DNA from: Verrucomicrobiota bacterium
GTDB taxonomy: Bacteria; Verrucomicrobiota; Verrucomicrobiia; Opitutales; Opitutaceae
Assembly (NCBI GenBank): GCA_016235555.1
Contig: JACRKC010000106.1
Span: 1 to 61,704 of the forward strand
Length of the DNA: 61,704 nt
Direction: 5' to 3'
In this document: one piece after another, positions 27,352 to 36,747 of the stretch
Position numbering within the stretch: position 1 is the stretch's first letter
How the letters are laid out: the number at the start of each line of letters is the position of its first letter
Made by a program: the position numbers and the translations under genes
Notes under the pieces: model-generated
Seen by the model: the letters and a program-made list of their open reading frames with translations, nothing else
Told to the model about the DNA's origin: nothing
Database searches by the model: none

Positions 27352-27615
27352 ATGATCGTCATCCGCCGCCTCGTCGATCGGAACCGCGCCTACACCGGAA
27401 TATTTCTGAAGGGCGAGCCGCCGAAAATTTTCCCGACCACCGACTACGAACACGCACGCATCCTCCAAATCTACAAACAGGACCGCGCCTACGAGGGCAT
27501 CCTCAACGACTTTTCCGACTACGCGCTCGGCAGCAGCGCGGCCGCTCCCGCGACGCGGTCACGCACCACCACCAAAAAGAAAACCCGCCGCGATCGCACC
27601 GCGGCGGGGTTTTAG
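27352..27615 (+). CDS. Small protein of unknown function with basic tail
   Basis: 87 aa from ATG at 27352, 23 bp after thpR. Residues 1-55 look folded (MIVIRRLVDRNRAYTGIFLK, TTDYEHARILQIYKQDRAYE). Residues 60-87 are Ala/Thr/Lys/Arg-rich (TTTKKKTRRDRT), as in DNA- or RNA-associated tails. The last 12 codons and the TAG stop are also a terminator hairpin, so the C terminus may be shaped by RNA structure. No family recognised; moderate confidence that it is expressed. Confidence 0.6.
   Translation: MIVIRRLVDRNRAYTGIFLKGEPPKIFPTTDYEHARILQIYKQDRAYEGILNDFSDYALGSSAAAPATRSRTTTKKKTRRDRTAAGF
27580..27613 (+). terminator. Terminator hairpin inside the 3' end of a gene
   Basis: AAAACCCCGCCG-type stem: AAACCCGCCGCG at the left pairs with CGCGGCGGGGTTT at the right, ending in TTTT. 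It overlaps the last codons and the stop of the 87-aa gene. Either strand could use it; the T run is short. Confidence 0.65.
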
Positions 27616-28475: not shown

Positions 28476-28665
28476 GGCAGACGATGTGACTGCCAGGCCG
28501 CGAAAATGTTCACTTCGACCTGCCCCGTCCGGAAGCATCAGGTGAAAACTTCGGCGCCGCTCCCGTCCGCCCGGCCGGCTCGCCGCCGCAGCGCGATGGC
28601 CGTTCGTCGCGTTTTCATGGCGCTTTGTCGCTGTCTGGTCGATGAACGGGGCAAACCGGTTCACG

Positions 28666-29187
28666 ATGCCTCACGTGAAAAACATCGAAGTCAGCGACGA
28701 AGTCTTCGAGGCGCTGCAGCGACTGGCCACCGGCTTTCACCGCACGCCCGACGACGTGCTCGCCGCCCTGCTCAACGTCCCCGCCGCCTCGCCCGAGGCC
28801 GCCGAACCGCTCGCGGCCTACGTGATCAGCTCTGATTTCCGCGCCAAGTTCACCGACGCCGACAAATACCTCGCCCTCCTCTCCTGGGTCGCCGAACGCC
28901 ACCGCGACGAGTTCGACGAATTCATCCGCACGCAGACCAACGGCCGGCCCTACCTCAGCCTGAGTCGCGAGGAAATCCTCGCCACCTGCCGCTACAACCA
29001 GGCGCGCCAGATCGACGGCACGCCGTATTGGGCGATCATGAACATCGACACCGCCACGAAGCGCCGCTTCCTGTCGCGCGTGCTCGACTTCATCGGCTAC
29101 CGCGACGCCGTGATCGAGTTTGTCTGTAGCGCCATCGGCATGCGCGGCGCCGTGCGACGCAGCCGCCTCACCGCGCTCGTCGCCTGA
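28666..29187 (+). CDS. SeqA-like protein (replication-initiation modulator family)
   Basis: 173 aa from ATG at 28666; an ATG at 28642 would add 8 residues. The N-terminal strand-helix-helix (VKNIEVSDEVFEALQRLATG, TPDDVLAALLN) matches the oligomerisation domain of E. coli SeqA (begins MKTIEVDDELY). The C-terminal domain matches in order: the helix DADKYLALLSWVAERHRDEF, NGRPYLSLS (R94 at the E. coli R116 position), GTPYWAIMNIDTATK (118-132) and a closing helix VIEFVCSAIG (E. coli LIEKVCGTI). Of the GATC-contacting N150-T151-N152, the first Asn is kept (N126) and the last is Asp (D128). SeqA binds hemimethylated GATC and delays re-initiation. No dam gene in the window. A 15-residue basic tail is extra. 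Alignment from memory. Confidence 0.8.
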   Translation: MPHVKNIEVSDEVFEALQRLATGFHRTPDDVLAALLNVPAASPEAAEPLAAYVISSDFRAKFTDADKYLALLSWVAERHRDEFDEFIRTQTNGRPYLSLSREEILATCRYNQARQIDGTPYWAIMNIDTATKRRFLSRVLDFIGYRDAVIEFVCSAIGMRGAVRRSRLTALVA

Positions 29188-36396: not shown

Positions 36397-36747
36397 ATGT
36401 TCAACTTTGAAAAACTCGAGGTCTGGCACAAATCCATCGCCTACGCCGGCCATACCTACCGTGTGACCAGATCCTTCCCGAAGGAGGAACAGTTTGGGCT
36501 CACCAACCAGATTCGTCGGGCCGCCAACTCTGTCTCATCCAACATCGCGGAAGGCTCTGCCCGTCCGCCGGCCGACTATTGTCGTTTCCTCGGTTACGCA
36601 GCCGGGTCTCTCTTCGAGGTGGTTACCCAGGCGACCATTGCGCGCAACGAAGGATTCCTGAATCCCGAAAACTACGCGCAGCTTTACGCCGACGCTGAGG
36701 AAATTTCTCGTATGCTGAGCGGACTCCGGCGCTTGCTCGGTGAATAG
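36397..36747 (+). CDS. Four-helix-bundle protein (23S rRNA intervening-sequence protein family)
   Basis: 116 aa from ATG at 36397. Typical family features: opening [15 protein letters not shown], the central [22 protein letters not shown] and the C-terminal [14 protein letters not shown]. The family (TIGR02436) forms pentameric four-helix bundles. Relatives include proteins of 23S rRNA intervening sequences and the Avd subunit of diversity-generating retroelements. No reverse transcriptase or rRNA is nearby. Inverted CTCAACTC repeats lie on both sides, and the gene interrupts the ABC operon between copy 4 and permease H. GC content is visibly lower than its neighbours. Confidence 0.92.

Follow-up and report, generated by a model that had tools for sequence, protein, structure and literature searches.

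The window, a stretch of 61,704 nucleotides from a Verrucomicrobiota bacterium that was analysed at its full length, encodes a true member of the SeqA family. The analysis suggests, with a probability of about 0.58, that this protein represents a vertically inherited, Dam-independent and sequence-specific SeqA branch that would regulate its own gene, which is probably also under LytTR control. In textbooks SeqA stands for the reading of hemimethylated DNA, and it is usually considered jointly with Dam. What is new here is a SeqA-fold branch without a tie to Dam and with a putative operator in its own promoter, the SeqA fold family itself being known. A literature search returned no paper joining SeqA with Opitut-, and at listing level no study of SeqA in Verrucomicrobi- was apparent.

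The open frame at 28666-29187 on the forward strand holds 173 aa. The sequence-only reading had described it as a SeqA-like protein with both domains in order, and this identification was confirmed by profile, domain and fold comparisons. A profile built from 36 family members aligned to E. coli SeqA over both domains, in order, with 98.7% probability and 25% identity, and it pairs MKTIEVDDE with VKNIEVSDE, as claimed for the N-terminal IEV-D-E strand. Residues 52-155 match PF03925, the SeqA C-terminal domain, with 57.9 bits (cut-off 25.5, E 1.3e-15); this is the sole Pfam match of the protein at E values up to 1, and all 36 family members have it. PF17206 (SeqA_N), the other model that had been named for the protein, gave no match in the window protein in the Pfam search and weak matches in 3/36 family members. 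The protein scores 58.8 bits with the NCBIfam SeqA equivalog PRK11187, well below the cut-off of 185, and a SeqA function as a negative regulator of replication initiation is not supported for it. The best sequence match among solved structures is SeqA 3fmt (E 1.6e-8, residues 5-157); the five top structures are all SeqA, and the remaining six have E values above 0.6. Structural comparison led to the same result, with an AlphaFold2 model (mean pLDDT 78) matching SeqA chains with Z scores of 15.2-15.5, the top one being 3fmt_B with a Z of 15.5 and an rmsd of 2.2 Å over 111 residues, while no unrelated chain exceeds a Z of 3.0.

The start codon is probably GTG 28675 rather than ATG 28666, which would shorten the protein from 173 to 170 aa (28675-29187, forward strand), because most relatives begin at the residue aligned with this GTG and because the promoter palindrome described below then lies at its usual distance. 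The N-terminal domain (residues 4-38, 28675-28779, forward strand) aligns to the E. coli SeqA oligomerisation domain and is modelled with helices at residues 11-22 and 28-35; the E. coli oligomerisation residues T18, I21 and A25 correspond to A21, F24 and P28 in the profile alignment. The C-terminal DNA-binding domain (residues 47-157, 28804-29136, forward strand) is the part that matches PF03925 and superimposes on 3fmt_B. It includes the DNA-contact loop N126-I-D128-T-A-T-K-R133 (29041-29064, forward strand), which is placed by alignment to the E. coli N150-N152 region and varies together with the promoter site. The sequence-only reading counted three key DNA contacts, one of them changed. 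An excerpt of the E. coli literature (PMC6225831) names five, R116, T117, R118, N150 and N152. The window protein keeps N150 and R118, has D at the position of N152 and a gap opposite T117. The reported change of N152 to D128 is correct. In an alignment of 36 sequences that includes the window's and leaves out L025, L014, L002 and E. coli, N126 and D128 both reach 90% conservation or more, as do T131, K132, R133 and R134. Since D128 is this well conserved, the change is a lineage trait and not noise. The recognised site may well differ, as had been suggested; on chemical grounds Asp at 128 would suit a cytosine-rich site.

The family does occur outside the gammaproteobacteria, as had been proposed, here in a group of bacteria from soils and waters. 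PF03925 was found in 18/95 relatives, 15/61 in the window's family and 3/34 in other families of its order. Of 387 genomes drawn evenly from across the phylum, 15 have PF03925 (14 over the cut-off), and every one of the 15 belongs to this order. A scan of named genomes returned 27 loci, labelled Opitutaceae, Opitutales, Opitutae/Opitutia or Verrucomicrobia, which include Pelagicoccus mobilis and strain DG1235. The neighbours tested at these loci were the peptide transporter, 2OG oxygenase, LigT-like phosphoesterase, small protein, SDR, LptG and LivJ-like genes of the window, and at least one of them lies beside seqA in 18/27 loci, with none in the other nine. The conserved neighbours include a LigT/2'-5' RNA ligase-like phosphoesterase (PF02834, 26789-27328, forward strand) and an LptF/LptG permease (PF03739, 30235-31362, reverse strand). 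A 78-aa protein with no Pfam match (27379-27615, forward strand) has a counterpart beside seqA in 11/27 named loci. Four tandem periplasmic binding protein genes (PF13458, 31343-36333, forward strand) follow further along in the window and are succeeded at 36744 by a permease of the branched-chain amino acid type (PF02653).

No relative of the protein was found in viral contigs or in phages. A plasmid collection gave 11 matches, from enterobacteria and Aeromonas, at 20-26% identity, several of them on chromosome-sized records, and a phage or plasmid origin was rejected on these results. Contamination or a recent arrival of the gene is likewise not supported, given the 18/95 relatives that carry the gene and the 18/27 loci that have neighbours in common. 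The seqA-like gene resembles a chromosomal gene passed on by inheritance and present in only some of the genomes, and it does not look like a contaminant. One genome of the same order (G081) has a different, more gamma-like SeqA (L002, 69.9 bits) with a weak SeqA_N match and a different contact loop, and has no PF02086 match; this protein falls outside the reading proposed here.

The promoter of the gene features a conserved palindrome that the sequence-only reading missed. The palindrome, AACCGGTT, is a putative operator for the SeqA-like protein and lies at 28654-28661, its only copy in the 61.7-kb window. It occurs no more than 60 bp ahead of the start in 21/38 non-redundant homologues, and its core ACCGGT does so in 26/38, leaving 12/38 with neither; these upstream counts leave out L002 and E. 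coli, identical duplicates (five) were merged, and L005, which coincides with L001, was dropped, as was the unaligned fragment L017 (G071). The upstream regions of the homologues have little in common except the palindrome: over 26 site-aligned rows the mean pairwise identity is 95% for the 8-bp site and 37% for the 25 bp to its left. Elsewhere in the 27 named loci, over 395,062 bases, AACCGGTT occurs nine more times. The position of the site is likewise conserved, ACCGGT beginning 18-22 bp before the start in 24/27 rows of an enlarged set, with L022, L012 and L011 as exceptions, and 20 bp before it in the window if translation begins at GTG 28675. On both sides of the site, AAAC half-sites follow at a distance of about 10 bp. 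In several promoters, -35 and -10 hexamers can be recognised by eye on the two sides of the palindrome, as in L004, where TTGACA and TATTTA enclose a 17-bp spacer that holds it; the window's own hexamers are not convincing. The sister clade has a palindrome of another form, ACCT-N7-AGGT in 5/6 rows and AGGT-N3-ACCT in the sixth (L042, from Pelagicoccus mobilis KCTC 13126), and a homologue from another bacterial family (L003) has upstream of its gene ACAGGTTTAACCTGT, which resembles both operator forms.

The site varies together with the protein. Among 38 main-clade homologues the loop pattern N[IL]D..TK is intact in 27, all of which have ACCGGT within 60 bp, and altered in 11, none of which has it upstream. 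The test leaves out the six rows of the second clade and L003, as well as L179, which has no recognisable start, and L011 was scored as having the site, though at -55. A conserved palindrome that tracks the protein was thus found in its own promoter, with a loop pattern that was defined post hoc, after inspection of the data, and with three independent joint changes of loop and site on the tree. With so few changes, a tree-based test of co-variation had no power and gave no significance (one pair on supported branches, p = 1). The proteins that lack the operator differ at many positions, and a column scan found F24 and D64 changed in all three lineages. In L015 and in L010 the changes fall on loop columns more often than on other columns (5/10 vs 8/47 each), which is not so in the large subclade (3/10 vs 14/47), in a table (VIA-align) that barely covers the N-terminal domain. 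The change of site appears linked to the protein, and for the loop specifically such a link is not proven, because changes occur elsewhere and the large subclade has no excess in the loop. The strongest single observation comes from one genome (G344) with two paralogues (L178 and L185), one per clade, whose nearest rows are L041 (78%) and L008 (78%). Each paralogue has the operator type of its own clade, and therefore the operator follows the protein and not the host. The simplest account of these sequence patterns would be that the SeqA-like protein binds its own promoter.

A second type of box lies further upstream. The window has a distal box TTCGTCGCG, a LytTR-type direct repeat, at 28603-28611 (forward strand), 72 bp before the GTG, and a proximal box TTTGTCGCT at 28624-28632 (forward strand), 21 bp after the distal one and 51 bp before the GTG. 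In 13/38 homologues, among them the window's, the start codon is preceded by a TTCGTCGC-type box that begins at -50 to -52, and some of these 13 have further boxes at about -71 or -93. Pairs of boxes 20-23 bp apart occur in 4/38 upstream regions vs 2/4358 background windows. LytTR proteins are described, in excerpts of PMC11347149 and PMC6193735, as binding 9-bp direct repeats with 10-13 bp spacers, and the same excerpts give TTCNNGCA for RcoM. The window's own genome has several TTCGTCGC boxes 20-21 bp apart (G000 contig C8 64545-64593; L220, L229) upstream of an operon identified as LytS/LytTR by Pfam, and in a second genome (G051) a box array precedes an operon that resembles this one by sequence. 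The boxes were considered as SeqA sites and rejected, since the arrays precede the LytS/LytTR operon and also occur in SeqA-lacking genomes (G006 and G013). With LytTR-type boxes upstream of the gene and the same arrays before the LytS/LytTR operon, two-component control is therefore probable, and the seqA-like gene is probably under LytTR control as well in some family members, among them that of the window. Arrays are also found upstream of frames in G020, G037 and G051. A search of 16 genomes gave 12 array matches vs 2 for the reversed control, some of them inside reading frames. There is perhaps a LytTR regulon in the window's family.

To look for further targets of the SeqA-like protein, 10 of the 95 genomes were searched with an 11-bp version of the site, which is so nearly palindromic that a single site can be counted twice. 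The window's own genome gave 7 matches vs 10 for the reversed control and so has no enrichment. The counts for pattern and control in other SeqA-bearing genomes were 19/7 (G003), 18/19 (G020), 16/5 (G016), 9/4 (G059) and 8/9 (G023), and in SeqA-lacking genomes 9/5 (G004), 10/8 (G006), 6/4 (G013) and 18/6 (G034). The totals of 77 vs 54 for six SeqA-bearing and 43 vs 23 for four SeqA-lacking genomes do not set the groups apart, and a genome-wide AACCGGTT regulon was rejected, since the own genome is unenriched and SeqA-lacking G034 also exceeds its control. Around sites in six SeqA-bearing genomes, 60 stretches, six of them inspected in detail, yielded three pairs between genomes in which the neighbouring proteins are similar, and no convincing second conserved target. 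One genome with a SeqA-like protein (G020) has AACCGGTT three times in a span of 160 bp, with 10 bp between two of the copies, at about 2579600 of contig C1 (L258:1452, 1588 and 1598), a possible second target. In another (G015), dnaA has one AACCGGTT copy some 150 bp upstream; this case is isolated, and the SeqA gene of that genome itself has no site. A role beyond the protein's own gene is possible and could take the form of a small regulon, of looser sites, or of a structural role in which the operator serves for feedback.

A canonical role, in which the protein would read hemimethylated GATC or another adenine-methylated word and sequester new DNA or the origin, with the palindrome as a side issue, appears quite unlikely. 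The SeqA fold and the N150 equivalent are retained, and the dam-type methylase for which the sequence-only reading had advised looking is present in the window's own genome (TIGR00571, 271 bits, cut-off 114.85). Both points favour such a role. That Dam-family gene (G000 contig C51, L230:2397-6774) is probably on a mobile element, because its neighbours on the two sides are a TrwB-like coupling ATPase and a DnaG-like primase. The 95 relatives were searched for PF02086 (the Dam class), PF01555 and PF02384, and the 18 SeqA-bearing ones for PF07669. PF02086 is found in 5/18 SeqA-bearing vs 21/77 SeqA-lacking relatives (Fisher p = 1) and is absent from 13/18 of the former, which argues against the canonical role, as does the D in place of N152. 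PF02384 is somewhat commoner with SeqA (16/18 vs 49/77, p = 0.049) and PF07669 occurs in 17/18, several of its matches covering fewer than 50 residues; these counts speak for the role. A CcrM-type methylase (PF01555) was rejected as the partner (14/18 vs 42/77, p = 0.11; absent from G012, G015, G056 and G071). A 93% complete genome with a SeqA-like protein (G056) has no PF02086, PF01555 or PF02384 match and one 36-residue PF07669 match, so that none of the four families has a clear full-length member there, and in G059 the only match to these families is a 54-residue PF01555 match of 47.9 bits. MukB was found in 0/18 and MutH in 1/18 SeqA-bearing relatives, which also weighs against the role. 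In G037 a MutH-family match directly follows a PF01555 methylase (contig C4 8501-9575; L216, L233), and the two may form a restriction-modification pair rather than serve mismatch repair. GATC was counted in 20 dnaA stretches of the 18 SeqA-bearing genomes and 12 stretches of 12 SeqA-lacking ones. No GATC cluster was found in these stretches, which are not tied to a located origin. Their best 400-bp windows held 5-13 GATC in SeqA-bearing genomes, 6-11 in SeqA-lacking ones and 6-13 in control stretches, and GATC sequestration was rejected because neither the counts nor the best windows around dnaA differ usefully between the two groups. A search with crude exact patterns, one of which is unable to match, saw no DnaA boxes ahead of dnaA in 17 segments taken from 16 genomes (G003 was left out and G022 was too short). 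A link to Dam methylation is not supported, and neither is the methylation-linked system that the sequence-only reading had suggested; some other methyl mark may still play a part.

Two further explanations concern the palindrome and the fold. The palindrome could be the site of another conserved regulator of the seqA-like gene, the protein itself doing something else, such as nucleoid organisation. The assignment of the operator to the SeqA-like protein is inferential, and the gene already has a second box type for an outside regulator, yet we consider this reading unlikely. Even where one genome has two paralogues, the type of operator is that of each protein's clade, every lineage with an altered protein lacks the site, the upstream boxes are kept in 4 of the 6 altered-protein rows that were read (L010, L015, L018 and L019), and the few other copies in the loci are unlike what a general regulator's site would give. 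That the C-terminal resemblance to SeqA is incidental, and the protein a small repressor or an antitoxin of the ribbon-helix-helix type, is very improbable. Autoregulation is typical of antitoxins and would fit one, and the N-terminal domain has weak matches to VapB, an antitoxin family, in 4/36 members and to DUF7557 in 2/36. E. coli SeqA itself gives the same weak matches, the SeqA C-terminal domain is present in 36/36 members and dominates the fold searches, so that the fold largely refutes this explanation, and the tested neighbours are a 2OG oxygenase, LigT, an SDR, LptG, a Gly-zipper protein and the Pfam-less 78-aa protein, with no toxin among them.

The preferred reading is that of an autoregulatory, methylation-independent branch of the SeqA family, probably inherited vertically and found here only in one Verrucomicrobiota order. 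The protein would have kept the SeqA fold and domain order and would act as a sequence-specific DNA binder for which methylation does not matter. Its C-terminal domain, with the contact loop N-I-D-T-x-T-K, would read the ACCGGT-type palindrome in its own core promoter, the proposed target being AACCGGTT with AAAC half-sites about every 10 bp. E. coli SeqA subunits bind paired GATC sites together; here the N-terminal domain would join subunits on neighbouring, helically phased half-sites. The protein on the palindrome would repress its own transcription, and in part of the family a LytTR-type response regulator would probably activate the gene from the boxes at about -50 and -71. It is proposed only tentatively that the change of N152 to D, together with the TKRR stretch, moved recognition from the A-T pair of hemimethylated GATC to the cytosines of ACCGGT, the palindrome being unmethylated. 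On that proposal, the branch would represent either a sequence-specific ancestor of the methylation reader or a loss of methylation reading, and with the ACCGGT and ACCT-N7-AGGT operators nature would offer a series of specificities built on the SeqA fold. A SeqA fold kept without dependence on Dam, with a candidate site and natural variants, would make the evolution of methyl-mark reading testable.

Among the closest known systems, SeqA of E. coli and Vibrio (PF03925, PF17206; PDB 3fmt, 1lrr, 3sk7) has in common with the window protein the C-terminal fold, the domain order, the IEV-D-E strand and the GTPYW motif, and in E. coli also the equivalents of R118 and N150. The window protein differs from E. 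coli SeqA in its shorter linker and its score under the equivalog cut-off, and the verrucomicrobial branch differs in that it has no association with the Dam class, no MukB match, MutH in 1/18 and a putative unmethylated palindromic operator. Ribbon-helix-helix autorepressors and antitoxins likewise feature a small N-terminal domain with weak family matches, a palindrome in their own promoter and half-sites about 10 bp apart; they differ from this family, which has the SeqA domain in the 36/36 members tested here and no recognised toxin beside the gene. LytTR-regulated promoters (RcoM, CoxC, HdrR), as described in excerpts of PMC11347149 and PMC6193735, feature the same 9-bp direct repeats with a 12-bp spacer upstream of the core promoter, whereas here the box at -50 to -52 is present in 13/38 homologues only, and the candidate regulator is the LytS/LytTR operon of the window's own genome, which is preceded by the same boxes.
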